DNA of 64,000 bases from Erwinia sp. E_sp_B01_1 (GTDB taxonomy: Bacteria > Pseudomonadota > Gammaproteobacteria > Enterobacterales > Enterobacteriaceae). The stretch is taken from assembly GCF_036865545.1 (NCBI RefSeq), contig NZ_CP142208.1, forward strand, positions 4,154,001 through 4,218,000, in the 5' to 3' direction. Below are positions 1-12,812 of this stretch, piece by piece. The notes beneath the pieces were generated by a model that saw only the letters and a program-made list of their open reading frames with translations, did no database searches and was not told the DNA's origin. Within the stretch, counting starts at the first letter, position 1. Every line of letters begins with the position of its first letter. The position numbers and the translations under genes are program-made.

Positions 1-866
1 AGCCCGCCGTTGAATGCAGCCACCGCTGCCGCCTGGCTCACCGATCCTGCGCCAGAGCTGTTCTGCGATTGCACCACCACCATCGCATCGATCAGCGCTT
101 TCGGCCCTGCTCCGTAACCTATACGCCAGCCGGTCATGGCATAGGTTTTGGAGACGCCGCCCACCAGCAAAATACGATCCTGTAAATCCGGCGCAACGTT
201 CAGCAGGCTGCGATGTTCACGACCATCGAACAGCACATGTTCGTACAGCTCATCCAGCAGCACTAACACATCAGGATGCTGGCGCAGCACCCCTGCCAGT
301 GCGGCAAGCTCTTCGGCATCATAGACCGCCCCGCTGGGGTTCCCCGGCGAGTTAAGTACCAGCCAGCGAGTGCGTGGGCCAATCGCGTCAGCCAGCTGCT
401 GCGGCTGAAGTTTGAAGCCCTGCTCCAGCGGGCAGTTCAGCAACACCGGCTCGCCCCCGTTGAATTTCACGCTGTCCGGGAAAGTCGGCCAGTAAGGCAC
501 CGGCACCAGCACCTCATCCCCCTCATTCAGCGTGGCGGCAAAGGCATTAAAAATAATCTGCTTGGCGCCGTTGGCGATCGCAATCTGATTCACCCCGTAA
601 GCCAGCTGATTTTCACGCTGCAATTTCTGCTGCACCGCTTCACGCAGGGCTGCCGTGCCGGGCGTTGGCGTGTAATTAGTCTCGCCCTGCGCAATCGCCT
701 GATATGCCGCCTGTTTAATATGCTCTGGCGTATCGAAATCGGGCTCGCCCAGGGTGAGGTCCAGAATATCCACCCCTTCCGCTTTCAGGCGCTGGGTAAG
801 CTGACGGGCCGCCGCATTAGCGGACAGAGAGACGCGCTGTACGCGCGTGGAGAGCTGAAGGGTCAT
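1..866 (-). CDS. Class I PLP-dependent aminotransferase (aspartate aminotransferase type), 3' end cut by window
   Basis: The minus strand is open from the ATG at 866 to the window edge (288 codons visible). The N-terminus with the LGEPDFDTPEHI motif, the N-S-P-x-N-P-S-G segment, and SKTYAMTGWRIGY with the likely Schiff-base Lys at residue 240 are fold-type I aminotransferase signatures of the aspartate/tyrosine subgroup. About 100 residues of the C-terminal domain lie outside the window. It is read in the same direction as the monooxygenase and alcohol dehydrogenase upstream, with about 126 bases between it and the monooxygenase stop, so it may be the last gene of that operon. In a succinocysteine pathway it could transaminate the released oxaloacetate; that role is inference, and the substrate cannot be read from sequence. 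Confidence 0.9.
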   Translation of the reverse strand, partial: MTLQLSTRVQRVSLSANAAARQLTQRLKAEGVDILDLTLGEPDFDTPEHIKQAAYQAIAQGETNYTPTPGTAALREAVQQKLQRENQLAYGVNQIAIANGAKQIIFNAFAATLNEGDEVLVPVPYWPTFPDSVKFNGGEPVLLNCPLEQGFKLQPQQLADAIGPRTRWLVLNSPGNPSGAVYDAEELAALAGVLRQHPDVLVLLDELYEHVLFDGREHRSLLNVAPDLQDRILLVGGVSKTYAMTGWRIGYGAGPKALIDAMVVVQSQNSSGAGSVSQAAAVAAFNGG

Positions 867-992: not shown

Positions 993-2300
993 TTACTGGT
1001 AGTCTGGCAGGCCCAGATTCTCGCGCAGCGTGGGGTACTGATATTCCTCGCGGAACAGGCCACGGCGCTGCAACTCTGGCACCACCAGCTCGATAAACAG
1101 ATCCAGCTGCTCTGGCATGGTCGCCGGCATGATGTTGAAGCCATCTGCGCCTTCCTGCTCCAGCCACTGCTGGAAATCATCGGCGATCTCTTTCGCCGTG
1201 CCCACCACCACCCGATGCCCACGGGAACCGGCTGCAACGGCGGCCAGCTCACGCAATGTCAGGTTGTCGCGCTTAGCCATGTCGGTGAACAGTTTTACCC
1301 GGCTCTTGTTCCCTTCGCCCTCTGGCGCTTCCGGGACCGGGCCATCCAGCGGGAACTGGCTCAGATCCATACCAAAGCGTGAGGAGAGCTGGCGCAGGCC
1401 GTTCTCAATATCCACCAGCGAATTCAGCTCTTTCCAGGTCGCTTTGGCTTCTTCCAGCGTGCGGCCCACAATCGGCATCACGCCCGGCAGAATCAATAAA
1501 TGGTCCGGATTGCGTCCCGCCTCTTTGACCTTCTGTTTTTGCGAACGGTAGAACGCCTGCCCCTCTTCCAGACTGGCCGAGGCGGTAAACACTACTTCAG
1601 CCGTTGCGGCTGCCAGCGCCTGTCCCTCTTCCGACGAGCCCGCTTCAATAATTACCGGCCTGCCCTGCGGAGAACGGGAGATATTCAGTGGCCCCTGCAC
1701 CTGAAAATGCTCGCCCTGATGATCGATCGCGTTGATTTTGTCATCGACAAAATAGCGGCCGCTGGCGGCATCCGGCTGCACAGCGCCCGCTTCCCAGGCT
1801 TCCCAGAGCTTGAAAGAGACGTCCAGGAACTCGCGGGCTTTGGCGTAGCGTTCGGCATGAGCTGGCATATCGTCGCGGCTGAAGTTACGCGCCACGTCAG
1901 CGGAGAATGAGGTCACCACGTTCCAGGCGGCGCGGCCACGGCTGATATGATCGATGGACGAGAAGCTTCTCGCCAGGGTAAAGGGATCGCTGAAGGTGGT
2001 GGAAGCCGTAGCCGCCAGGCCGATATGTCTGGTGGAAACGGCCAGCGCTGAAAGCAGCGTCAGCGGCTCCAGTCGCGCCATGGTGGAGGGCAGACGGTGG
2101 ACGTTAGTCGCCAGCGCATCGCCAACAAAGAACATATCAAACAGGCCGGATTCCGCCTTTTGGGCAATTTTGATCAGCCAGTCGATGTCCGTGGGCGAAC
2201 CCAAATCGCTGGTCAGTCGCCAGCCGCTGACGTGGTGACCCAGAGGCTGAACAAACAGGCCCAGACGAAGCTGGCGTGAAGCTGAAGTTGAAGAAGTCAT
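993..2300 (-). CDS. LLM-class flavin-dependent monooxygenase, NtaA/SnaA/DszA family (YxeK-like)
   Basis: The protein has 435 residues, the usual size of the family that uses reduced FMN from a partner reductase to oxidise C-S or C-N compounds. Family features visible are the N-terminal LGLFVQPLGHHVSGWR segment, AVSTRHIGLAATASTTFSDP, and WNVVTSF followed by the helix with Y-A-K-A-R-E-F. The ATG at 2300 is preceded by AGGA. It lies between the aminotransferase and the iron-type alcohol dehydrogenase on the same strand. With the GNAT, M20 and MmgE/PrpD genes across the divergent promoter region it reproduces the gene set of B. subtilis yxeKLMNOPQ, where YxeK attacks N-acetyl-S-(2-succino)cysteine. 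The substrate is inferred from that context. No flavin reductase gene is seen in the window. Confidence 0.88.
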   Translation of the reverse strand: MTSSTSASRQLRLGLFVQPLGHHVSGWRLTSDLGSPTDIDWLIKIAQKAESGLFDMFFVGDALATNVHRLPSTMARLEPLTLLSALAVSTRHIGLAATASTTFSDPFTLARSFSSIDHISRGRAAWNVVTSFSADVARNFSRDDMPAHAERYAKAREFLDVSFKLWEAWEAGAVQPDAASGRYFVDDKINAIDHQGEHFQVQGPLNISRSPQGRPVIIEAGSSEEGQALAAATAEVVFTASASLEEGQAFYRSQKQKVKEAGRNPDHLLILPGVMPIVGRTLEEAKATWKELNSLVDIENGLRQLSSRFGMDLSQFPLDGPVPEAPEGEGNKSRVKLFTDMAKRDNLTLRELAAVAAGSRGHRVVVGTAKEIADDFQQWLEQEGADGFNIMPATMPEQLDLFIELVVPELQRRGLFREEYQYPTLRENLGLPDYQ

Positions 2301-2352
2301 AAATTATCCTGGAATGAAGTGGCGCAGGCTTCAGTAGCCTGCGCAAAAAGGG

Positions 2353-3423
2353 TTAACCGATCTCAGTGGCCAGCAGCGCTTTCTCTAACGCCTGCGGGGA
2401 GATCTCAAAAGGCAGTCTCATCGCGCTGGCTGGAGAAAATTTAATTTCACGGGCGATGCGGGCAATCGCTTCAGGGCGATTGCCGGTGAGCGGAGAGAGC
2501 GTTAGCGGCGCATCATACTGACGCAGCAGAGCCAGTAACTCTGCATCCGGCTGGCCGTCGGGATGTTGCATAAACGACTGCACCAGCAGGCTGAAGCCGA
2601 CTTTCTCACCGTGCAGCCAGCGGTGTAATTCCGGCTGATGCGTAAGGCGATTGTGAATGGCGTGCGCAAATCCCGGCGTCGGGTCAGCATCACGGATACT
2701 GTTCGCCATGCCCGCGAGCACGATGCAGGCTTCAATCACCTTACTCAGCGCTGGCGTGACAACGCCCTGCGCGTTATCCAGTACCGCCTGCGCACCCCAC
2801 TTCTGGAACACTTCCAGCGCCTGGCGTGCCATCAGGGCTTTAAGATTCAGCGCTAAATTGTCCGGGTTTTTCTGCTGATAAGGCTGGAACTCGTACCATT
2901 TGGCTAGCGCATCCACGATGCCCGCTTTGAGATAGCGAACGTCGCTGCGGGCGATCACTTCGCTGTCGGCCAGCACCAGATCCGGCATCCGGCTCAGTGG
3001 CTGGCTGCGCTGATGACCGCCGCTGGCGGTATAAAGAATGCTGATCGGCGACCAGGCGGCACAAGTGGCGGCCAGGGTGGGCATAGTGACGATAGCGACG
3101 TTTTCCAGCGCGTTGCCCACCGCTTTGGCGGCATCCAGCACGCGGCCTCCGCCCACCCCCAACACCAGCGATGCCGTGCTGTGCTGCATCGCCGCAGTGA
3201 AATCGGCTATCGCCTCTTCAGTGCATTCGGTAGTCAGCATTGCCAGTTCATAACGGATCCCGCTGGCCGCCAGGCTGGCCCCTAATTCAGGGTTTACCGC
3301 CTGCCAGGCTTTGGGACTGGAGATAATAAAAAGGTGATGTGACAGGGGCGCAATTAATTCCCCTGCTTTCGAGCGGATACCTGGAAGCTGCGAATAGTTT
3401 TTCGGTGATTTAATAGAAAACAC
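2353..3423 (-). CDS. Iron-containing alcohol dehydrogenase family (glycerol dehydrogenase/HcxA-like oxidoreductase)
   Basis: A GTG at 3423 preceded by AAAGG gives 356 residues, close to the 360-370 usual for the GldA/YbdH (HcxA) branch. The frame is open further upstream to 3645, but those 74 codons resemble no family N-terminus. Seen: the NAD-binding GVGGGRVLDAAKAVG, the TMPTLAATCAAWSPIS segment typical of YbdH/GldA, and metal-site histidines in the GFAHAIHNRLT and LHGEKVGFSLL regions. HcxA-type enzymes reduce 2-oxo acids to 2-hydroxy acids. The gene is upstream of the monooxygenase, 52 bases away and on the same strand, so it is probably cotranscribed. It is not part of the Bacillus yxe operon, and its role here (for example acting on the C4 oxo acid released) is only a guess. 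Confidence 0.82.
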   Translation of the reverse strand: MFSIKSPKNYSQLPGIRSKAGELIAPLSHHLFIISSPKAWQAVNPELGASLAASGIRYELAMLTTECTEEAIADFTAAMQHSTASLVLGVGGGRVLDAAKAVGNALENVAIVTMPTLAATCAAWSPISILYTASGGHQRSQPLSRMPDLVLADSEVIARSDVRYLKAGIVDALAKWYEFQPYQQKNPDNLALNLKALMARQALEVFQKWGAQAVLDNAQGVVTPALSKVIEACIVLAGMANSIRDADPTPGFAHAIHNRLTHQPELHRWLHGEKVGFSLLVQSFMQHPDGQPDAELLALLRQYDAPLTLSPLTGNRPEAIARIAREIKFSPASAMRLPFEISPQALEKALLATEIG

Positions 3424-3743
3424 GCTGTGACCTTTATATTTTATTCTGCGTGGAAAAGTCCGAATAATTCCCTGTAAATAGTTTGAGCATCCGCGAAACT
3501 TTACCGGGAAGGGGCGACAGATCAGTGCTTTCATCATGCTACAAAGAAAACCGCATAAGCAATCGAGCTTTTCTGATCCTATGCGACAAATTCGCAAGAG
3601 CTTATGCAAATAACAGCTAAGGGGATTGGGGACAGGCTGTGGCAAAATTTACTCTGGCCTGATTTATTCCATCCGCCACCAGATTTAATAATAAAAGACC
3701 GGACCCGAACTTTTCGCTTTCATTCCAGCACAGGGAGCACCGC
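3424..3743. promoter_or_regulatory. Divergent intergenic region between the dehydrogenase and acetyltransferase operons
   Basis: About 320 bases separate the GTG start at 3423 (minus) from the ATG at 3744 (plus). Promoters for both halves of the catabolic locus must lie here. No strong operator palindrome was seen, and no regulator gene is adjacent. Control by a distant sulfur regulator such as CysB or Cbl is possible but is not shown by the sequence. Confidence 0.5.
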
Positions 3744-4283
3744 ATGAATCTGCATTTCCGTCAGCTCACGCTTGACGATCGTCACGATTATTTAGCGCTG
3801 ATGCTGGCGGCCTACGCCCCGATCCGCGAGCTGGGCATCCATTTTGATGCCGCCACCGCCGATCTGGAACGCGTCACGCAGCATTTGCAGCAGCATGCCG
3901 TCTATGGCCTGTTTGCAGAAGATAAACTCGCCAGTTCGCTGACCTTACGTTTTCCCTGGGGGCCGCTGCCGGGGCCGTTTGGCCTGCCGCACATTGGCTG
4001 GTTTGGCACTGACCCGGCATACAAAGGGCAACAGTTTGGCCGCAGGATGCTCGAGTGGGTGGAAGAGCATGTTTTGCGGGGGCAACTGAAAGCGCCGGCC
4101 GTCTCCCTCGGCACCGCCACCAGCCATCCGTGGCTGAAAGAGATGTACCTGCAGCGCGGCTTTGAGCCTCAGCATCTCACCGATTTGGGCAAAGGCCATA
4201 TCACCCTGTATATGAAAAAAATCCTCGATCCGGCCGCCCATCAACAGTGGCTCGACAAAACGACCCGTCAGGAAAAATCATGA
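3744..4283 (+). CDS. GNAT family N-acetyltransferase (YxeL/SnaB-like)
   Basis: 179 residues. The N-terminus LHFRQLTLDDRHDYLALM is typical of GNATs, and the acetyl-CoA motif A is seen around WFGTDPAYKGQQFGRRML (residues about 90-107), followed by LGTATSHPWLKEMYLQRGF. A purine-rich CAGGGAG lies upstream of the ATG. It overlaps the next gene by four bases (ATGA), so it is translationally coupled to the M20 hydrolase. The pair fits the acetylate-oxidise-deacetylate logic known for S-alkyl- and S-succinocysteine salvage in Bacillus: N-acetylation of the amino acid before the monooxygenase acts. The amino-acid substrate is inferred from context. Confidence 0.85.
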   Translation: MNLHFRQLTLDDRHDYLALMLAAYAPIRELGIHFDAATADLERVTQHLQQHAVYGLFAEDKLASSLTLRFPWGPLPGPFGLPHIGWFGTDPAYKGQQFGRRMLEWVEEHVLRGQLKAPAVSLGTATSHPWLKEMYLQRGFEPQHLTDLGKGHITLYMKKILDPAAHQQWLDKTTRQEKS

Positions 4284-5446
4284 CTGTTACTGAAGAACAT
4301 CAGCCGCTGGCTGAGTGGATTACCGCTTTTCGTCAGGAGCTGCACCGCTACCCGGAGCTCTCAAATCAGGAAGTGGAAACGACGGCGCGTATCAGAGCAG
4401 CGCTGGAAAAACATCAGATCCGTATTCTGAATCTGCCGCTGCGCACCGGGCTGGTGGCGGAAGTCGGGCCGGAGAGCGGGCCGCTGATTGTGCTGCGTTC
4501 AGACATTGATGCCCTGCCCATAGACGAACAGTCCGGCGTGGCGTTTACCTCAGAAAACCCTGGCGTGATGCATGCCTGCGGTCACGATTTCCACGCCTCG
4601 GCGGCGTTGGGTGCCGCTATCCTGTTGAAGAAAAAAGAACAAAGCCTGCCTGGCCGGGTACGGATCCTGTTCCAGGCAGCGGAAGAAACCGGCATGGGCG
4701 CGCCAGAGTTGCTGGCCACCGGTGCGCTGGATCGGGCGGAGGTGATCTTTGGCATCCACAACGATCCTTCCCTGCCTGTTGGCGTGATCGGCAGCAAAGG
4801 TGGCCCGCTGACCGCAGGCGTCGATCGCTTTACCCTTACCATTACCGGCACGGGAAGCCATGCGGCTAAGCCACATGAAGGCAACGATCCGATCGTGATC
4901 GCCGGACAGTTGATCGGCACGCTTCAGACGCTGATCAGCCGCAACGTGCTCTCCAGCGAAAATGCGGTGGTCTCGATCACGCAGATCCACAGCGGGACAA
5001 CCTGGAATGTGATCCCCGAAAGTGCCTGGCTTGAAGGCACCGTCCGCACCTTCAGCCAGGCGACCCGCGAGAAGATTGAACAGCGGTTCCGTCAGGTGAC
5101 TCAGGGGCTGGGTGAAACTTTCGCAGCGCGCATTGAACTGGACTGGCAGGCTGGCCCGCCATCGGTGATCAACGATGGGGCATGGGTGGATTTTGCTCTG
5201 GAGCAGGCTCCGCTGGCCGGTTTCGAAGCCAGAGTGATCGAAGCCAGCCCGATCGGCGAAGATTTCTCTTTTTATCAGCAGCAGATCCCCGGCGCCTTTT
5301 TAATGATCGGATCCGGCGGCCCCTTCGCGCTGCATCATCCGCAGTTTCGGGTGGACGATCGTGCGCTGTTCCCTACTTCAGATTATCTGGCGAAACTGGC
5401 GGTTCAGGCGCTGGAGAAGATTGCCCTGAGTAAGGACGTGGCATGA
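4280..5446 (+). CDS. M20D family amidohydrolase/deacylase (YxeP/HipO-like)
   Basis: 388 residues from the ATG at 4280, which overlaps the GNAT stop and has AGGA in front; an in-frame ATG-less extension to 4247 is less likely. Signatures are FRQELHRYPELS at the N-terminus, the metal ligands in HACGHDFHA, QAAEETGMGA with the catalytic Glu pair, and GSHAAKPHEG in the dimerisation domain. The family hydrolyses N-acyl amino acids such as hippurate and N-acetylcysteine. In the proposed pathway it removes the acetyl group to release cysteine. Its stop overlaps the start of a 32-codon ORF that links it to the MmgE/PrpD gene. Confidence 0.9.
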   Translation: MTVTEEHQPLAEWITAFRQELHRYPELSNQEVETTARIRAALEKHQIRILNLPLRTGLVAEVGPESGPLIVLRSDIDALPIDEQSGVAFTSENPGVMHACGHDFHASAALGAAILLKKKEQSLPGRVRILFQAAEETGMGAPELLATGALDRAEVIFGIHNDPSLPVGVIGSKGGPLTAGVDRFTLTITGTGSHAAKPHEGNDPIVIAGQLIGTLQTLISRNVLSSENAVVSITQIHSGTTWNVIPESAWLEGTVRTFSQATREKIEQRFRQVTQGLGETFAARIELDWQAGPPSVINDGAWVDFALEQAPLAGFEARVIEASPIGEDFSFYQQQIPGAFLMIGSGGPFALHHPQFRVDDRALFPTSDYLAKLAVQALEKIALSKDVA

Positions 5447-5541
5447 ATCAAACGGTGACGCTGCCCGCTGACTTACTGCAACGCCAGGCGGAGGTGATCC
5501 TTACCGGTTGCAATATTATGAACATCTTCCCGGAGTTTTAA
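5443..5541 (+). CDS. Short coupled ORF between amidohydrolase and MmgE/PrpD genes (unknown)
   Basis: An ATG at 5443 overlaps the amidohydrolase stop (ATGA), and the TAA at 5539-5541 overlaps the next ATG by one base. It encodes 32 residues beginning MNQTVTLPADLLQRQAEV. It contains the GGAG that serves the following gene. It may be a coupling leader, or the 5' remnant of a gene lost from the operon. No family was recognised. The tight overlaps at both ends argue that it is translated. Confidence 0.45.
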   Translation: MNQTVTLPADLLQRQAEVILTGCNIMNIFPEF

Positions 5542-7040
5542 TGGAGATCACCCAACAGCTGGCGCGGCTGATTGTCACCAGCCAGCCGGACAGCGAAGCA
5601 CGCGACAAGGCCAGAGCCGGATTGCTGGATTATGTGGCGGTAACGCTGCCGATCCTGCGCGGCGATATTCAGGACAGCGGGCTTACCGCCTTGCGTCAGG
5701 TGTATCAGGCGCAGGATGCACAGACTCACGCCCTGCTGCTGGGCTATGCGGGGCACGCGCTGGACTACGATGATTTCCACCCCGATTTTCGCGGCCATCC
5801 CGGCACGGTAATCCTGCCCGCGCTGCTGGCGCTGGCTGCTGAGGCCCAGCCGGGATCTGGTGCTGGTGCTGGTGCTGGTGCTGGTGCTGGTGCTGGTGCT
5901 GGTGCTGGTGCTGGTGCTGGTGCTGGTGCTGGTGCTGGTGCTGGTGCTGGTGCTGGTGCTGGTGCTGGTGCTGCAGATAATGATGGGACTGAGAGCACGG
6001 GTGTCAATGTCAGTGCTGACAATTTCCTGGATGCTTATGCGATCGGCGTGGAAGTGGCGGGCCGCTTTGGGCTGGCGGCAACGCAGCAGCACTATAAGGC
6101 TGGCTTTCACAGCACCGCCACGCTGGGCACGCTGGCGGCGGCCGCTGCGGTGGCGCGACTGCTGAAAACGTCCGAAGCGCAGACCGCCTCGCTGCTGGGC
6201 ATCGCCCTGACGCAGGCCAGCGGATTGCGGGCGCAGTTTGGATCGGCGGTAAAACCGCTGCACGCCGGATTGGCGGCTCAGGCAGCGGTTGTGGCAGCAA
6301 GACTGACGCTGGCGGGATTCGCAGGGCAGCCACAGGGCGTGATTGAGGCGTTTCTGCTGGCCTGCTGCGGTGAGCAAAGTAACCCTTCACGCCTGACAGA
6401 ACACTGGGCTGAGCCGTGGCGGATTGTCTCGCCGGGGCTGGAATTCAAACCTTATGCGACCTGCGGAGGCACCCACACTGCCGCCGATGTGGCCCGCCGT
6501 TTACGGCGTCTGGCTCTGGCACAGTTTCAGGGCAGCGTGGAGGCGATGACCGCAGCGATCGGCCGGATTGAAGTGGCCTTCCCACCGGGTGGAGATATCG
6601 CGGCTAACGTCACCCATCCCGCCACGGGCATGGAGGCGCGTTTCAGCCTGGAATATGTGATCGCTTCCTGCCTGCTGTATGACGGCGTGGCGCTGGAAGA
6701 TGTGGCAGAAGGCCCGGTAAACCCGGTTATCGCCAGCCTGGCAGAACGTGTTTCTCGCCACCCTGATTTCTCGGCTCCGCCGGACGAAATCAATCCTGCC
6801 GCCCGTTTCCATCAGGTAACAATCTGGTTTGAGGGCACAGAACCGCTGACGTGCCGGATGACCAGATCAGAGAGTCTGGCCAACCCGCCAGATTTAGCGA
6901 TGAAGCTGAAAAGCTGCCTGGGTGCAGCGCCGCAGAGTCTGGTCCATGAGATTGCATCACTCTGCCAGCTTGCCACCAAAGCTTCGTTGCCAAGGCTGAC
7001 TACGATCCTTACTGAGGCACTATCTGACTCAGCAAACTAA
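5541..7040 (+). CDS. MmgE/PrpD family protein (YxeQ-like) with a long Gly-Ala repeat insert
   Basis: 499 residues from the ATG at 5541, with GGAG six bases upstream. Family marks are GYAGHALDYDDFHPDFRGHPGTVILPA near residues 72-96, YAIGVEVAGRFG, GFHSTATLGTLAAAAA, and the conserved FKPYATCGGTH. MmgE/PrpD proteins include 2-methylcitrate and cis-aconitate-type dehydratases/isomerases; YxeQ is the B. subtilis family member in the succinocysteine operon, with no firm role known to me. Residues 107-144 are a pure (Gly-Ala)19 tract inserted in the loop between the two conserved segments above. Without it and its short flanks the protein would be near the usual 450 residues. It is the last gene of the plus-strand operon. 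Confidence 0.88.
   Translation: MEITQQLARLIVTSQPDSEARDKARAGLLDYVAVTLPILRGDIQDSGLTALRQVYQAQDAQTHALLLGYAGHALDYDDFHPDFRGHPGTVILPALLALAAEAQPGSGAGAGAGAGAGAGAGAGAGAGAGAGAGAGAGAGAGAGAADNDGTESTGVNVSADNFLDAYAIGVEVAGRFGLAATQQHYKAGFHSTATLGTLAAAAAVARLLKTSEAQTASLLGIALTQASGLRAQFGSAVKPLHAGLAAQAAVVAARLTLAGFAGQPQGVIEAFLLACCGEQSNPSRLTEHWAEPWRIVSPGLEFKPYATCGGTHTAADVARRLRRLALAQFQGSVEAMTAAIGRIEVAFPPGGDIAANVTHPATGMEARFSLEYVIASCLLYDGVALEDVAEGPVNPVIASLAERVSRHPDFSAPPDEINPAARFHQVTIWFEGTEPLTCRMTRSESLANPPDLAMKLKSCLGAAPQSLVHEIASLCQLATKASLPRLTTILTEALSDSAN
5859..5972 (+). repeat. Perfect hexanucleotide tandem array (GGTGCT)19 inside the MmgE/PrpD gene
   Basis: Nineteen uninterrupted GGTGCT units (114 bases) encode Gly-Ala. 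Because the unit is six bases, copy-number change keeps the reading frame and only alters loop length. The other plus frames would read Val-Leu or Trp-Cys type repeats and are not expected to be used. Confidence 0.98.
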
Positions 7041-7172
7041 AAGGGCAATTAAGAACAGTAACGCCAGCACGTTGCACACTTTTCAACTATTACCCTGGAT
7101 TACCTTCTTAGTCTGGGGTTTAATCCCGCCGAATCTTAACCTCTTTCTGAATTCATTCTTCAATGGGAGAGG

Positions 7173-7235
7173 ACGTATATCCCAATGACATCTACACGCG
7201 CGCAACCATAATGGATATACATTACGTATATCCCA
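7173..7235. promoter_or_regulatory. vapBC operator-like repeats
   Basis: A perfect inverted repeat GGATATAC/GTATATCC (7213-7220 and 7226-7233) lies 17 bases before the vapB ATG. The 12-mer ACGTATATCCCA occurs twice as a direct repeat (7173-7184, 7224-7235). This is the layout of an autoregulatory site bound by a VapB-VapC complex. Function is inferred from position. Confidence 0.6.
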
Positions 7236-7249
7236 AAAGGAGACTGATA

Positions 7250-7476
7250 ATGGAAACTACAGTTTTCTGAGTAACCGCAGTCAGGCCGTTCGTCTACCGA
7301 AATCCGTTGCAATGCCTGAAGGTGTTAAGCATGTTGAAGTTGTTGCCGTAGGGCGAACCCGCATCATCACACCTGTAGGGGAATCCTGGGACGCATGGTT
7401 TAACGGAGAATCTGTCACCGATGATTTCATGTCAGCCCGCGAAGAGCCGGAAATACAGGAGCGGGAGAGCTTCTGA
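7250..7476 (+). pseudogene. vapB: VapB-type antitoxin, frameshifted after codon 6
   Basis: The ATG at 7250 follows a strong AAAAGGAG, but the frame hits TGA at 7268. If one base is restored in the T run at 7263-7266, the reading becomes METTVFLSNRSQAVRLPK and continues to the TGA at 7474-7476 (75 residues). That is a normal VapB with the AbrB-like N-terminal N-R-S-Q-A-V-R-L-P-K motif and a C-terminus that overlaps vapC by one base. The intact toxin next to it suggests a sequencing or assembly slip, a slippage-dependent antitoxin, or an internal start at the in-frame ATG (M-P-E-G-V). As written, the DNA-binding half is not translated. Confidence 0.8.
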
Positions 7477-7874
7477 TGCTGAAATACATGCTGGACACCA
7501 ACATCTGTATTTTTACTGTCAAAAATAAGCCAGAGGCGGTGCGGCAAAAGTTTAACCTGCATCGCCAGCAAATGTGTATCAGTGTGATAACGCTGATGGA
7601 GCTTATCTACGGCGCGGAGAAAAGCAGCGCGCCTGAACGTAATCTGGCGGTAATCGAGAGCTTTACTGCCCGCCTTGAGGTACTGGATTACGATATGCAC
7701 GCGGCCACGCACACCGGACAGTTTCGGGCTGAGCAGGCAAGAACAGGTCAGCCCATTAGTCCGTATGATCAGATGATTGCCGGTCATGCCCGAAGCAGGG
7801 GACTGATTATCGTAACCAATAATATGCGCGAATTCTCCCGCGTTTCCGGCTTGCGGGCAGAAGACTGGGTTTAA
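7476..7874 (+). CDS. vapC: VapC-type PIN-domain ribonuclease toxin
   Basis: 132 residues, full length for VapC. PIN-domain acidic residues are visible: D7 in MLDTNICIF, the Glu of TLMELIYGAEKS, the Asp of SPYDQMIAGHA, and the late VTNNMREFSRVSGL motif. VapC toxins cleave initiator tRNA or rRNA loops when not bound by VapB. Its ATG shares a base with the vapB stop. The ORF is complete, although the antitoxin frame ahead of it is broken. Confidence 0.92.
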   Translation: MLKYMLDTNICIFTVKNKPEAVRQKFNLHRQQMCISVITLMELIYGAEKSSAPERNLAVIESFTARLEVLDYDMHAATHTGQFRAEQARTGQPISPYDQMIAGHARSRGLIIVTNNMREFSRVSGLRAEDWV

Positions 7875-7916
7875 GCAAATGAGCCGATGCTGTCGCATAA
7901 GCCCCCCTCATTCCAC

Positions 7917-10214
7917 TTACCCTTTTGTCACCACCGGCGGTTCAAACGCCCGGACTTCCGGCGCTTCGCCCTCATAGCGCCGGATTTGCACCACGGTGAT
8001 CTGCCCGGAGCAACCCTGGCTCAGTGACGAGGTGCCGATATCCAGCGTCAGCACATTGGGGTTGCCATGACGGCATTGCGGTTTTGTCGCCTGCGGATCC
8101 ACCGGATCGTACCAGGCTCCCGTAGGCAGTTGGATCACCCCTTCGCGCACCGTCTCAGACAGCACCACGCTGGACAACACCGAGCCGCGCTGGTTGTAGA
8201 TCTCCACCACGTCGCCATCGCCGATCCCTTTCTTCTGTGCATCAAGCGGATGCATCCGGCACACTTCGCGCCCGCCGCGTTTCTGACTCACGCTGTAGCG
8301 GCCAAAATCCAGCTGGCTGTGAAGACGTGAGGCGGGCTGATTGGCGATCAGGTAGAAGGGATGCGCTTCATCGGGTTGCTGTACCGGCTCAAGCCAGACC
8401 GGATGGCCAGGGCAGTCGGCATCGTTAAAGCCGGCCAGCGTGGCAGAGTAGATTTCGATTTTGCTGCTGGGTGTGGGTAACGGATGCTGCTGAGGATCGC
8501 GGCGGAAGTTACGCAACAGTCTTCCGGCATCATCACTTTGCGGCAGGGTCAGCACGCCCTGCTGCCAGAAATCTTCGAAGTCCGGCAGGATAACGCCCTG
8601 CTTCTCCAGCTTCTGCTGAAGCTGGAGATAGAGATGCGCCTGCCACTCCCTGGCCGTTCGCCCTTCGGTAAACGCCTGCTCTTTTCCCAGCCTGCGAGCC
8701 AGCTCGCCAAAGATGGTGTAATCGTCTCTGGCTTCGCCATAAGGCTCTGCCACACGCTGCATGGCAAACAGATGCCGGTCGGTAGGCGCACCGCCCACGT
8801 CTTCGCGCTCCAGCGTCAGGGTGGCTGGAAACACCAAATCCGCATGGCGGGCAGTGGATGTCCAGGCAATCTCATGAACAATCAGCGTATCCAGAGTATT
8901 AAACGCCTGACGCAACCGTGCCAGATCCTGATGATGATGGAACGGATTGCCGCCAGCCCACCAGGCCAGTTTGATGTGCGGGTACGTCAGGGTGCGGCCG
9001 TTGTAGCGAAACTTTTCGCCCGGATGCAGCAGCATGTCTGAAATACGCGCCACCGGGATCAGGCGGTCAATGCCATTCTGGCCCTGCGGCAACGCCGGGA
9101 AAGAGACCACATTGTGTTGCTTGCCGTAATGGCCCAGCGCGCCAAGCGCATAGGCGTAGCCGCCTCCCGGCAGGCCGGGCTGGCCCAGCGCTGCCGCCAG
9201 CACCAGTCCCAGCCACACCGGCTGTTCGCCATGCTGGGCACGTTGCAGCGAGTGCGCCACGGTGACAATGACCCGGCGATGATGAAGTTGCCCGGTCAGT
9301 GCTTCGATGCGTTCTGCCGGAATACCGCAGATTTCCGCAGCCCAGGCGGCATCCCGCACCTGTCCGTCCTCTTCGCCGTTGAAATAGGCCACCAGCCGGT
9401 CCCAGCCCACGCAATACTCTGCCAGGAAGGCTTCATCACTCCACTGACGCTGCCAGAGCGTATGCAATACCGCGAGGATCAGCGCGGCATCGGTGCCGGG
9501 TTTGATGGCAAGCCACTCGCCCCGGGCTTCCTCCGGCAGATCGCTTTGCAACGGGCTGACCGAGATAAAGCGTGCGCCGCGCTGTGCCGCCTGACGCATA
9601 TAATCGCGCTCGGTGTGTTCGCTGATGCCGCCGCTGGCTACCTGAGAATTTTTCAGTGCCAGGCCGCCAAACGACAGCACCACTTCGCTGTGATCGGCAA
9701 TCTCCTGCCAGCTTACGCCGCGTCGGGCGATCTCATTCATGTCGCCCACAATATGCGGCAGGATCACCGAGGCTGCACCGGAGCTGTAGCTGTTTACTGA
9801 GCGGACGTAGCCGCCAATAGTGGTATTCAGGAAACGGTGCACCTGGCTCTGGGCATGATGAAAACGTCCGGCGCTGGACCAGCCATAAGAGCCACCAAAA
9901 ACACCTTCCGGGCCGTGCTTACCGGCCACGCGTTTCAGCTCGTTCGCCGCCAGGCTGTAAGCCTGCTCCCAGCTTATCGAAATGTATTCATCTGAACCGC
10001 GACGATCGTCCGGGCCTGGGCCATCCTCAAGCCACCCGCGACGCACCATTGGCGTGGCAAGGCGGATCGGATGACGCAGAACATTTTCAAAATTTTGCAG
10101 CAGCGGGCTGGGATCGGGATCGCCCGCGAACGGGGCGATCTTCAGGGTGTCATTGTCGTTGAGGACGCTGAACGCCCCCCAGTGCGAACTGTGCATGGCA
10201 CGGGTTGCGGTCAT
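7917..10214 (-). CDS. Molybdopterin oxidoreductase, BisC/TorA-type (biotin or methionine sulfoxide reductase-like)
   Basis: 765 residues. The start MTATRAMHSSHWGAFSV, the GSYGWSSAGRFHHAQSQ segment, and the VNSYSSGAASV segment (about 140-150) that holds the probable Mo-coordinating Ser place it in the DMSO-reductase subfamily with TorA, DorA and BisC. No twin-arginine signal peptide and no CxxCxxxC iron-sulfur motif are present, so it is most like cytoplasmic BisC. It lies 24 bases after the ABC ATPase and is the last gene of a four-gene operon with the amino acid transporter. That suggests it reduces a sulfoxide of the imported compound. Substrate is unknown. Confidence 0.85.
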   Translation of the reverse strand: MTATRAMHSSHWGAFSVLNDNDTLKIAPFAGDPDPSPLLQNFENVLRHPIRLATPMVRRGWLEDGPGPDDRRGSDEYISISWEQAYSLAANELKRVAGKHGPEGVFGGSYGWSSAGRFHHAQSQVHRFLNTTIGGYVRSVNSYSSGAASVILPHIVGDMNEIARRGVSWQEIADHSEVVLSFGGLALKNSQVASGGISEHTERDYMRQAAQRGARFISVSPLQSDLPEEARGEWLAIKPGTDAALILAVLHTLWQRQWSDEAFLAEYCVGWDRLVAYFNGEEDGQVRDAAWAAEICGIPAERIEALTGQLHHRRVIVTVAHSLQRAQHGEQPVWLGLVLAAALGQPGLPGGGYAYALGALGHYGKQHNVVSFPALPQGQNGIDRLIPVARISDMLLHPGEKFRYNGRTLTYPHIKLAWWAGGNPFHHHQDLARLRQAFNTLDTLIVHEIAWTSTARHADLVFPATLTLEREDVGGAPTDRHLFAMQRVAEPYGEARDDYTIFGELARRLGKEQAFTEGRTAREWQAHLYLQLQQKLEKQGVILPDFEDFWQQGVLTLPQSDDAGRLLRNFRRDPQQHPLPTPSSKIEIYSATLAGFNDADCPGHPVWLEPVQQPDEAHPFYLIANQPASRLHSQLDFGRYSVSQKRGGREVCRMHPLDAQKKGIGDGDVVEIYNQRGSVLSSVVLSETVREGVIQLPTGAWYDPVDPQATKPQCRHGNPNVLTLDIGTSSLSQGCSGQITVVQIRRYEGEAPEVRAFEPPVVTKG

Positions 10215-10238
10215 ATTTTTTCCTGGGTCTGGCGACGG

Positions 10239-11000
10239 TTAAAGCACCGTGGCTAAGAAATGACGGACGCGCGGATTTTGCGCTTCATCCAGTACGGTCG
10301 CCGTCGGCCCGGAGGCGACGATTTTGCCCTCTTCCATAAAGACGATATTGTCCGCCACTTCACGGGCAAAGCCGATCTCGTGCGTGACGATCACCATAGT
10401 GATGCCGGAGTGCGCCAGCTTCTTGATCACCTGCAACACCTCGCCCACCAGTTCCGGGTCCAGCGCAGAAGTCGGTTCATCAAACAGCATCACTTCCGGA
10501 TCCATCGCCAGCGCACGGGCAATCGCCACGCGCTGCTGTTGACCACCGGAAAGCTGCTGCGGCCAGTCGTTCTCACGCCCTGCCAGCCCGACCTGTTTCA
10601 GCAGCGCAATGCCTTTGGCTTCCGCCTGCTGACGGCCGATCTTTTTCACCCGCATTGGCGCATCAATCACGTTCTGCAATACGGTGCGATGAGGAAACAG
10701 ATTAAATTGCTGGAACACCATGCCAATCTGGCTGCGCTGGGCCGCAATCTGCTTGCTGTTAAGTTCGTGCAGCGTCTGGCCTTTTTGCTCATAGCCCACC
10801 AGCGCGCCACCGATGCGGATAGTGCCGCCATCCAGCTTTTCCAGATGGTTGATGCAGCGCAGCAGGGTCGATTTACCCGATCCCGAAGGACCGAGAATAG
10901 TGGTCACCGATCCGGCCGCAATATCTAAATCAATGCTGTCCAGAATAGTGACGCCGGAAAAGCGCTTGGTGATTTTCCGTAACGAGATCGCTTCAGCCAT
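10239..11000 (-). CDS. Polar amino acid ABC transporter ATP-binding protein (YxeO/GlnQ/TcyC-like)
   Basis: 253 residues. Walker A GPSGSGKSTLLR, Q-loop FQQFNLFPH, ABC signature LSGGQQQRVAIARAL, Walker B VMLFDEPTSALDP and the switch His in VTHEI are all present. These are hallmarks of the PAAT (HisP/GlnQ) family. It overlaps the permease gene by eight bases and precedes the BisC-like gene. It powers uptake of the substrate captured by the periplasmic protein encoded two genes upstream. Confidence 0.95.
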   Translation of the reverse strand: MAEAISLRKITKRFSGVTILDSIDLDIAAGSVTTILGPSGSGKSTLLRCINHLEKLDGGTIRIGGALVGYEQKGQTLHELNSKQIAAQRSQIGMVFQQFNLFPHRTVLQNVIDAPMRVKKIGRQQAEAKGIALLKQVGLAGRENDWPQQLSGGQQQRVAIARALAMDPEVMLFDEPTSALDPELVGEVLQVIKKLAHSGITMVIVTHEIGFAREVADNIVFMEEGKIVASGPTATVLDEAQNPRVRHFLATVL

Positions 11001-11919
11001 TGCTCACACTCCTCTGCTCTGCGGTGTAAGTCTGCGGCTTGCGTTTAAACCAGACCTTTTTTTCAGCGCGGGTGACGCCACGGGCGAAATAGCGCTCAAC
11101 GTAGAACTGCCCTACTGACAGAACCGAGGTCATCAGCAGATACCACAATGTCGCTACCAGCAGCAGCGGGATCACCTGATAGGTGCGCTGATAGATAATC
11201 TGCGCCGAGAACAGCACATCCTGCAGCGCGATCACCGAGACCACAGCAGTGGTTTTCAACTGACCAATGATTTCGTTACCGGCTGGCGGCAGGATGGCAC
11301 GCATCGCCTGCGGCAACACGGTGTAGCGGAAAATCTCCGCCGGACGGTAGCCCAGCGCTTTTGCCGCTTCGAGCTGACCGTTGCCCACGCTTTGTATGCC
11401 GGCACGGACAATCTCAGCGGCATAGGCTGCCTGATGCATCACCAGCGCAATCACCGCCGCGCTGAACGGACTGATCAGCGAGTTGGAGGAGGCGCTCCAC
11501 AGCTCGCCCACGCCTGGCAGTGACAACGAGATGGTGGGATAGAGCGCGGCGATGTTGTACCAGAGGAACAGCTGAACCAGCATCGGCACGCCACGGAAAA
11601 ACCAGGTATAAGCCCAGCTCACGCTGACCAGCACCGGATTAGAAGAGAGGCGCATCAGTGCCAGGATCGTGCCGCCGGTAAAGCCCAGCACCACGGAGAT
11701 CGCGGTCAGCTCCAGCGTCATCAGCACCCCTTCGAGGATCGATTGCTGCGTAAAGCTGTCGGCAATCACCTGCCACTCAAAGCGGGGATTCTGCACCATA
11801 GAGTTGATCGCAGCGGCCAGCAACAGCAGCACCACTACGGCACTGATCCAGCGGCCATAGTAGCGTTTGCCGACTATCCGCAGCGTGTCGGGATCCTGGT
11901 GGCGGTCATCAAAACTCAT
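10993..11919 (-). CDS. Polar amino acid ABC transporter permease (YxeN-like)
   Basis: 308 residues, longer than the usual 220-250 because of an extra N-terminal hydrophobic segment around residues 27-43. The HisMQ-type core includes LTAISVVLGFTGGTILA, and the EAA loop is QLEAAKALGYRPAEIFRYTVLPQA. Several membrane helices are evident. It overlaps the solute-binding gene by four bases (ATGA) and the ATPase by eight. A single permease subunit implies a homodimer. Confidence 0.93.
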   Translation of the reverse strand: MSFDDRHQDPDTLRIVGKRYYGRWISAVVVLLLLAAAINSMVQNPRFEWQVIADSFTQQSILEGVLMTLELTAISVVLGFTGGTILALMRLSSNPVLVSVSWAYTWFFRGVPMLVQLFLWYNIAALYPTISLSLPGVGELWSASSNSLISPFSAAVIALVMHQAAYAAEIVRAGIQSVGNGQLEAAKALGYRPAEIFRYTVLPQAMRAILPPAGNEIIGQLKTTAVVSVIALQDVLFSAQIIYQRTYQVIPLLLVATLWYLLMTSVLSVGQFYVERYFARGVTRAEKKVWFKRKPQTYTAEQRSVSNG

Positions 11920-12812
11920 TCGAAGATTTCCAGATTACGTTTGGCTTCTTTCACTGCGCCGAATCCAATCGACCACTTATCCAGGATTTTCTGGTAAGAG
12001 CCATCTTTGATCAGCGAGTTCAGCGCGGCCTGAACCGCAGGCTCCAGCGGTGAATCTTTAGCGAACGCCACGGAAACCGGCGCATCGTCTACATGAATTT
12101 GTCCCGGCAATGCCAGCACCGGCACCTGGCTGACCTGATACGTCAGGCCTTCATAGGGGCCGAAGAACATCGGCACGCGCCCGCTCACTACAGCCTGCAC
12201 GCCAGACGGACGGTCCGGGAATACCGCGGTTTTAATCGCTGGCTTACCGGCGTCTTCACACTCTTTGCTGGCCGTTTCCAGACGGGTTAACTGAGTGGTG
12301 CCTGCGCCTGCACCCACGGTTTTTCCGCAGATCTCCAGGAAGGAGGTGAACGGCTTCACGTCAGCGGATTTCAGCGCGATGATGCCCAGGCGGGAAGCGT
12401 TGTAGTAGCCGACAAAATCAACCTGAGAGAGGCGGGCTTTGGTGGCGTTGATGTTGGAGAGCGCCACGTCGTAACGGCCAGATTTCAGGCCTGGAATGAT
12501 GTTGTCGAACCCGCCAGTATCCTGCCAGTGCACCGGAATGCCCAGGCGCTCTCCCACCGCATTCATGATGTCGATCTCGCGCCCGGCCAGCGTTTTGTTG
12601 TCTTCTTTAAAGAAAGTGGTCGGCGGCGTGTTCGGGTTGGTCCCGGCCACGATATAGCCACGCTTCAGGATATCCGCAGGGATCTGGCTTTTCAGTGTGC
12701 TGTCCGCTTCCACATGCAGTGTGCTTTCAGTCGGGACGTTCTGATCGGCGGCCCATGCACCCGGCAGACTGCCAACCATCAGCGCTGAGAACAGCCATTT
12801 AGATAATGTCAT
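11916..12812 (-). CDS. Periplasmic amino acid-binding protein of the ABC transporter (YxeM-like)
   Basis: 298 residues with a Sec signal peptide (KWLFSALMVGSLPGAWAADQ, cleavage after AWA). SBP-3 family features include GREIDIMNAVGERLG, DTGGFDNIIPGLKSGRYDVALSNINAT, and a C-terminal YQKILDKWSIG. It is the first gene of the operon binding protein-permease-ATPase-BisC-like enzyme. The GGAG-rich stretch just before the ATG supports the start. The ligand is inferred to be a cysteine derivative from the neighbouring catabolic genes. Confidence 0.92.
   Translation of the reverse strand: MTLSKWLFSALMVGSLPGAWAADQNVPTESTLHVEADSTLKSQIPADILKRGYIVAGTNPNTPPTTFFKEDNKTLAGREIDIMNAVGERLGIPVHWQDTGGFDNIIPGLKSGRYDVALSNINATKARLSQVDFVGYYNASRLGIIALKSADVKPFTSFLEICGKTVGAGAGTTQLTRLETASKECEDAGKPAIKTAVFPDRPSGVQAVVSGRVPMFFGPYEGLTYQVSQVPVLALPGQIHVDDAPVSVAFAKDSPLEPAVQAALNSLIKDGSYQKILDKWSIGFGAVKEAKRNLEIFE

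Follow-up and report, generated by a model that had tools for sequence, protein, structure and literature searches.

A gene cluster at the start of a 64,000-nucleotide stretch of DNA from Erwinia sp. E_sp_B01_1 (contig NZ_CP142208.1, positions 4,154,001 to 4,218,000; hereafter the window) appears to encode a pathway for recovering sulfur from succinated thiols. We favor, with moderate confidence, the reading that this locus salvages cysteine from S-(2-succino)cysteine (2SC), and perhaps from other S-succino thiols. This is the best reading of the sequence because the GNAT N-acetyltransferase carries motifs of Bacillus YxeL, and because this acetyltransferase and its deacylase are common to enterobacterial loci that encode S-(2-succino) lyase (2SL). 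Two testable claims are proposed, namely that the FMN-dependent luciferase-like monooxygenase (LLM) is a third C-S cleaving enzyme, and that the MmgE/PrpD protein (hereafter PrpD), along with YxeQ, is an S-succino epimerase.

The acetylation module connects the locus to 2SC. As a Bacillus reference, the scm/yxe locus of B. mojavensis (L045) was taken from a genome scan with the solved YxeP sequence. The window GNAT is 46% identical to YxeL of this species and shares with it the motifs PWGxxPGPxGxPH, SLGTAxxHPWL and DLGKGH, whereas two distant enterobacterial GNATs lack them except for HPWL. The M20 amidohydrolase has YxeP (1ysj) as its best match among solved structures (E 7e-114) and is 48% identical to B. 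mojavensis YxeP. Moreover, orthologues of the GNAT reside in operons with Dickeya-type 2SL at seven loci without an LLM and at three with one. The 2SL from one related locus is 91% identical to a Dickeya zeae protein; the 2SL of D. dadantii is a characterized enzyme that complements a B. subtilis yxeK mutant on 2SC (PMC9706529). Thus, with an M20 enzyme nearest YxeP and a PrpD nearest the YxeQ-like chain 7bra as well, the claim of the sequence-only reading that this is a 2SC-type (scm/yxe) locus is supported, as is apparent also from the rule of Hillmann et al. that at least three of five components be clustered: the window has four, counted by family and best relatives rather than with the SEED criteria.

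The genes concerned and their immediate neighbors are as follows (window coordinates).

1..866, minus strand: class I/II aminotransferase (AAT) of the aspartate-aminotransferase type; open reading frame (ORF) that runs off the window, the whole gene in the genome (L135) encoding 406 amino acids
993..2300, minus strand: NtaA/DmoA-family FMN-dependent LLM, proposed C-S cleaving enzyme and not a YxeK orthologue (profile match, trees, topology test)
2353..3423, minus strand: iron-containing alcohol dehydrogenase (FeADH), glycerol-dehydrogenase type; GTG start picked to match relatives, longer starts being possible
3424..3743, no strand: putative divergent promoter region; no 2SL remnant detected by tblastn
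3744..4283, plus strand: YxeL-type GNAT N-acetyltransferase (motifs common to YxeL)
4280..5446, plus strand: M20 amidohydrolase, predicted N-acetylcysteine deacetylase of the YxeP/ScmP type (YxeP 1ysj best solved relative)
5541..7040, plus strand: YxeQ-like MmgE/PrpD protein, proposed S-succino epimerase (catalytic His/Tyr and carboxylate-binding residues conserved)
5857..5973, plus strand: perfect in-frame (CTGGTG)19.5 repeat coding Ala-Gly within the PrpD gene; length-variable among relatives, low model confidence
7476-7874: vapC toxin gene, between the PrpD and molybdenum-enzyme genes
7917..10214, minus strand: BisC/TorA-family molybdenum S/N-oxide reductase, accessory (profile match); at some, not all, LLM loci
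10239..11000, minus strand: PAAT ABC transporter ATP-binding protein (family match)
10993..11919, minus strand: PAAT ABC transporter permease (family match)
11916..12812, minus strand: PAAT ABC transporter solute-binding protein (SBP); relatives in an operon with LLM and PrpD in Erwinia

All of the families named by the sequence-only reading (LLM, FeADH, GNAT, M20, MmgE/PrpD, a BisC-type molybdenum enzyme and a PAAT system) are indeed intact and clustered. The aminotransferase that it included is also present, but lies outside the interval 993..12812 to which the cluster had been assigned. Three gene groups can be distinguished: FeADH-LLM-AAT on the minus strand, whose AAT end leaves the window; GNAT-M20-PrpD on the plus strand, in which the M20 start overlaps the GNAT gene by 4 bp if an internal ATG is used; and SBP-permease-ATPase-BisC on the minus strand. 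This arrangement fits the three transcription units claimed earlier, as judged by strand and spacing. The clustering is not due to chance, because AAT-LLM-FeADH divergent from GNAT-M20-PrpD recurs in G115, G086, G141, G153 and G909 and on Pantoea megaplasmids. No exact palindrome is common to the eight divergent regions compared, and positions 993-5446 gave no match in an E. coli collection at megablast sensitivity. The genome is a single contig of 4.80 Mb, and the closest named relatives of its LLM are from Erwinia pyri (93%) and [Pantoea] beijingensis (86%).

Compared with the scm/yxe system of B. subtilis (YxeKLMNOPQ), the window has the same protein families, including a YxeL-type GNAT, a YxeP-type M20 enzyme and a PrpD related to YxeQ, but it adds AAT, FeADH and BisC in divergent units, its PAAT transporter is more distant (47% and 31% identity to B. 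mojavensis YxeO and YxeN) and its monooxygenase comes from another LLM lineage. Loci of the Dickeya/Pectobacterium type are ordered 2SL-GNAT-SBP-permease-ATPase-M20 and, in the seven that carry 2SL only, have orthologous GNAT (53-63%) and M20 (68-71%) proteins, with FeADH in three of the seven. In contrast, the window carries LLM, AAT and PrpD and is not a locus in which 2SL replaces YxeK, with no 2SL match at 1e-60 in its own genome. A tblastn search for a 2SL remnant in the window returned just two weak matches, both outside the divergent region (E 1.4 and 6.9).

The evidence that the cleaving enzyme is distinct comes from phylogeny. The window LLM scores 547.8 bits against TIGR03860 (NtaA/DmoA; cut-off 279.7) and is 48% identical to B. 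mojavensis YxeK over nearly its full length. Three IQ-TREE trees of 91, 51 and 55 rows were computed, the two smaller sets being chosen subsets. The largest omits L046, L206, L207 and L208 (near-copies or duplicates) and LLM ORFs that fell short of 200 bits or 85% coverage. The LLM N-termini were cut back to where the alignment begins, and for the 55-row tree ORFs longer than 470 amino acids were cut to their last 455 residues. All three trees separate a group of window-type LLMs (100/100) from a YxeK group. In the 91-row tree, YxeK and CmoJ belong to a 63-row set that excludes the window type (98/95), and the 55-row tree puts them in a common group (100/98). The latter tree joins the window type to LLMs from two Paenibacillus 2SL/YxeL/YxeP operons, two proteobacterial PrpD and transporter operons, and L239 (99/96). 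Support for the join with the Paenibacillus pair was weak with 91 rows (90/25) and better with 51 (99/94). An approximately unbiased (AU) test rejects a single clade of window-type LLMs and YxeK (p 0.0016 under the model used), and gives p 0.0088 when two further Bacillus LLMs are added to the held group. Because the test rejects this clade and the trees part its members, the window LLM is not YxeK by descent, whatever its activity, but represents a separate lineage.

These results bear on two alternatives. According to the first, which the sequence-only reading had adopted in equating the monooxygenase with YxeK, the locus is an scm operon by direct descent and its LLM is an enterobacterial YxeK. 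Despite matching neighbors and the near full-length 48% identity, we give this idea very little credence, given that the trees and the AU test contradict it, that the earlier reading's own phylogenetic check fails for the LLM, and that 48% identity to the B. mojavensis protein is below the level of >50% to the B. subtilis enzyme at which Hillmann et al. count close YxeK (ScmK) homologues (PMC9706529). The second alternative, an S-methyl- or S-alkylcysteine route of the ytm/ytn, CmoJ type, shares the logic of an LLM with GNAT and M20 partners; both of these partners occur in ytn and yha clusters too (PMC12757645), and CmoJ/YtnJ is the best solved relative of the window LLM (none of the 21 chains listed is named YxeK). 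We nevertheless regard it as quite improbable, since the locus has a single LLM and hence no second one to act as CmoO, since PrpD and the association with 2SL suggest a dicarboxylate, and since CmoJ groups with YxeK and the window LLM lies outside the CmoJ clade. According to the sequence-only reading, this route also lacks MmgE/PrpD. A diagnostic YxeK-like substrate residue was rejected, as most of the residues common to the LLM and YxeK are general to the family at large.

Further LLM genes lie in other contexts. Near 2.19 Mb of the same genome (L133:8002-10335), an LLM of the CmoJ-side group, 49% identical to YxeK, has a PAAT transporter and another luciferase-like gene as neighbors, and the set may represent an S-alkylcysteine route. 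In the two Paenibacillus loci (L064 and L066), genes for YxeP, 2SL, an AstE/AspA-type deacylase and YxeL come after the LLM gene and share its strand. The intervening genes of L064 encode TctC, TctB, TctA, a fumarate-reductase-like flavoprotein and a ferredoxin-like protein, and a nitroreductase gene follows; the equivalents in L066 were matched by size only.

The second claim concerns PrpD, which is 32-35% identical to YxeQ of three Bacillus species. Its best solved relative by both sequence and fold is 7bra, deposited as "Bacillus subtilis IRG1", followed by iminodisuccinate epimerase. We take 7bra to be YxeQ because it matches the B. mojavensis protein over 444 residues (E 6.6e-244), although that name is absent from the text of the structure paper. 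YxeQ and nine of nine chosen locus PrpDs retain H85, D88, H99, Y145, H150, K266 and the KPLH lysine, and none of these columns varies across the 23 rows of a broader alignment. The window protein therefore has the catalytic His99 and Tyr145 and the carboxylate-binding His/Lys residues expected of an iminodisuccinate-epimerase-like enzyme. Its predicted model (mean pLDDT 81.4, but under 50 for residues 107-153) ranks YxeQ-type chains (TM 0.73-0.74), iminodisuccinate epimerase (2hp0/2hp3; 0.73 by query length) and decarboxylases or dehydratases (0.67-0.71) with little difference between them; identity to the epimerase in the fold alignment is 23%, and the proposed substrate is a thioether rather than an amine. 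From these residues and the model, we predict that PrpD and YxeQ are S-succino epimerases, and 2SC fits the shared substrate pattern. Spontaneous succination should yield both isomers at the succino carbon.

YxeQ is listed as being of unknown function in PMC9706529. The Bs IRG1 active site is described as matching iminodisuccinate epimerase, with Y145 missing from mammalian IRG1 (PMC7347537), and a cis-aconitate decarboxylase role for PrpD was set aside because it possesses this tyrosine. Bs IRG1 itself was published as a cis-aconitate decarboxylase, but a later account doubts this assignment, places the protein outside the decarboxylase clusters and leaves its function undetermined (PMC12290011). 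Our literature search, whose coverage mostly excluded subscription journals and the 2018 discovery paper, found no proposal of an epimerase role for YxeQ or of a 2SC epimerase, and no described enzyme that interconverts the succino-carbon isomers.

We infer the substrate, each reaction, their order, the epimerase role, and the parts played by AAT, BisC and the transporter as follows. The PAAT transporter would import the S-succino compound, and BisC, which looks cytoplasmic, would reduce any that arrives as a sulfoxide to the thioether. The YxeL-type GNAT would then N-acetylate 2SC, and PrpD would take off and return the proton at the succino carbon, making both stereoisomers usable. Hydroxylation of this carbon by the FMN monooxygenase would produce an adduct that collapses to oxaloacetate and N-acetylcysteine, from which the M20 enzyme would release cysteine. 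Where present, the aspartate-type AAT could convert oxaloacetate to aspartate. The earlier proposal of the same route as in Bacillus is thus supported for the type of locus but not for its cleaving enzyme, which is from a separate lineage. A more ambitious and tentative suggestion, to which we would assign somewhat less than even chances, is that this second, independently derived flavin monooxygenase lineage and an MmgE/PrpD S-succino epimerase constitute a third means of breaking down S-succino adducts in addition to YxeK and 2SL, one that could operate whether or not the acetylation module is present.

The distribution of these genes was surveyed in 198 genomes of the GTDB family to which the window belongs, read as Enterobacteriaceae. 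Eight have an LLM of at least 76% identity, 14 an intact window-type GNAT (at least 53%) and 10 a 2SL (at least 71%), with a partial 2SL in G028. Left out of the count of intact GNAT genomes were G028, which is 49% complete and has broken genes, and G162, whose locus is fragmented, perhaps through sequencing errors; five further genomes with GNATs at 35-42% were not considered window-type; G167 was counted despite a stop-flagged GNAT match, its ORF covering 98%, and its M20 is split into two ORFs. LLM and GNAT co-occur in six genomes (Fisher p 1e-6, indicative only as kinship is uncorrected). Either LLM or 2SL is present in 13 of the 14 GNAT genomes: 2SL only in seven (G014, G105, G151, G097, G114, G167 and G043), LLM only in three (the window's own, G115 and G086) and both in three (G153, G064 and G141). 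In G141 and G153, 2SL has been added to the GNAT unit, as has a transporter in G141. PrpD is found at five of the six LLM loci with intact GNAT and at one of the seven 2SL-only loci.

A second sample consisted of the 27 named plasmids (19 Pantoea, 8 Erwinia) with an LLM match at E 1e-140 or better. On every one, no more than 8 kb separates PrpD from LLM, whereas GNAT and M20 are this close on 15 and lie elsewhere on the plasmid on 4. On plasmids of P. agglomerans and P. piersonii, the unlinked GNAT and M20 are part of a 2SL locus, and the other two unlinked cases have the same GNAT/purB neighbors; 2SL and LLM systems therefore coexist on the first two plasmids as they do in G153, G064 and G141. 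The 2SL-type genes of two Pantoea plasmid loci (L247 and L249) are annotated purB, adenylosuccinate lyase, which is probably a misannotation.

Several observations weigh against 2SC salvage as we describe it. The LLM is outside the YxeK clade, and roughly 48% identity to YxeK says little about its role, because HvrB, a Pantoea phosphonate enzyme (P. ananatis), is 48% identical to NtaA and 47% to ScmK and is assigned another role (PMC7858074). One member of the LLM lineage, L239, sits amid unrelated genes. Strict exclusivity of LLM and 2SL was rejected, given their overlap in 3 of 14 GNAT genomes (p 0.17, kinship uncorrected), and one such genome (G098) has neither. No PrpD was found in the 20 kb read in G064. 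AAT is on 14 of the 27 LLM plasmids, and FeADH, at 60% or more, on 17. GNAT and M20 were not found at the thresholds used on eight LLM plasmids, all from Erwinia, whose chromosomes were not searched, and the whole genome of G170, which has a PrpD-LLM-transporter operon and an M20 at 53%, yielded no YxeL-type GNAT. Because of these last two findings, acetylation may not be obligatory.

These absences also raise the possibility that LLM, PrpD and the transporter form a pathway of their own for another dicarboxyethyl compound without YxeL acetylation, next to which GNAT and M20 are a neighboring 2SC module. Candidate substrates would be 2SC in its free form, a succinated mercapturate after import, or an N-succino amino acid resembling iminodisuccinate or the opines; NtaA-type enzymes cleave C-N bonds too. 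The constant proximity of PrpD to LLM on plasmids argues for this alternative, as do the two Erwinia operons viewed (Erwinia sp. E602 and, by annotation, E. persicina), which read PrpD-LLM-SBP-permease-ATPase, and the lack of a YxeL homologue at 1e-5 in G170, G793 and G598, all with PrpD-LLM-transporter operons. A weaker hint is G162, in which LLM and transporter are open while GNAT, M20, 2SL, FeADH and AAT are in pieces, as sequencing errors might explain. However, GNAT and M20 are present on all 19 LLM plasmids from Pantoea and adjoin LLM on 15 of these, and in two Paenibacillus operons the LLM lineage recurs with 2SL, YxeL and YxeP. We consider a separate pathway unlikely, though more probable than the other two alternatives.

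In the G162 locus itself (L125), PrpD is also open, though about 40 residues shorter than its relatives, and the stretch is full of short ORFs that reflect either decay or sequencing errors.

The sequence-only reading presented the dehydrogenase, aminotransferase and molybdenum reductase as additions to the Bacillus pathway. All are present, but they do not behave as one unit. The best solved relatives of AAT are aspartate aminotransferases B and A (6f35 and 6f77, E 1.3e-123 and 7.5e-121), as expected if the LLM releases oxaloacetate. AAT occurs only beside LLM, adjoining it at all six LLM loci with intact GNAT and being absent from the seven 2SL-only loci, a pattern more in keeping with an enzyme that yields oxaloacetate than with a lyase that yields fumarate. 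FeADH is likewise at all six LLM loci, but its presence at three of seven 2SL-only loci (G114, G167 and G043) eliminates it as a partner of LLM only, and relatives at 57-59% occur on 36 further Pantoea plasmids without an LLM match at 1e-140. It is below the curated cut-offs of all nine NCBIfam families listed, and we commit to no role, beyond the guess that it might reduce the 2-oxo acid set free by cleavage. BisC is a family-level relative only of TIGR00509 (891.9 bits, under the cut-off of 1017.55), and because inspection of its ORF reveals no twin-arginine start, the enzyme may act in the cytoplasm. It was not seen near LLM in G153, G086 or Erwinia sp. E602, and on Pantoea dispersa plasmids both BisC and the transporter are far from LLM. 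In Erwinia sp. E602 and, by annotation, in E. persicina, a related transporter does belong to the operon that encodes LLM and PrpD.

Fumarate overload is marked by 2SC, and the only 2SC breakdown enzymes described in the literature surveyed are YxeK and 2SL. If true, the addition of an epimerase and a third cleaving enzyme would make the stereochemistry of 2SC breakdown complete. YxeK and 2SL were both missing from 11 of 102 scm loci (PMC9706529); the LLM-PrpD lineage could fill some of these, and YxeQ would gain a function. The epimerase prediction also makes the question of Bs IRG1/YxeQ function testable with purified protein.

Some lesser features of the region can be noted. There is no evident part for vapC in the pathway; the vapC gene is intact, and the vapB antitoxin frame before it (approximately 7250-7480) looks interrupted near its start when three frames are read by eye. 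At the related locus of G115 (L127:13402-14493), an Ldh_2 family dehydrogenase gene lies between M20 and PrpD, its nearest NCBIfam model being L-sulfolactate dehydrogenase, below cut-off. Finally, the Ala-Gly repeat of the window PrpD (499 amino acids) has far fewer units in the 99%-identical P0121 (471 amino acids) and none in P0123 and P0124 (78-80% identical), and thus has the look of an in-frame repeat of variable length that expanded recently within a metabolic enzyme.

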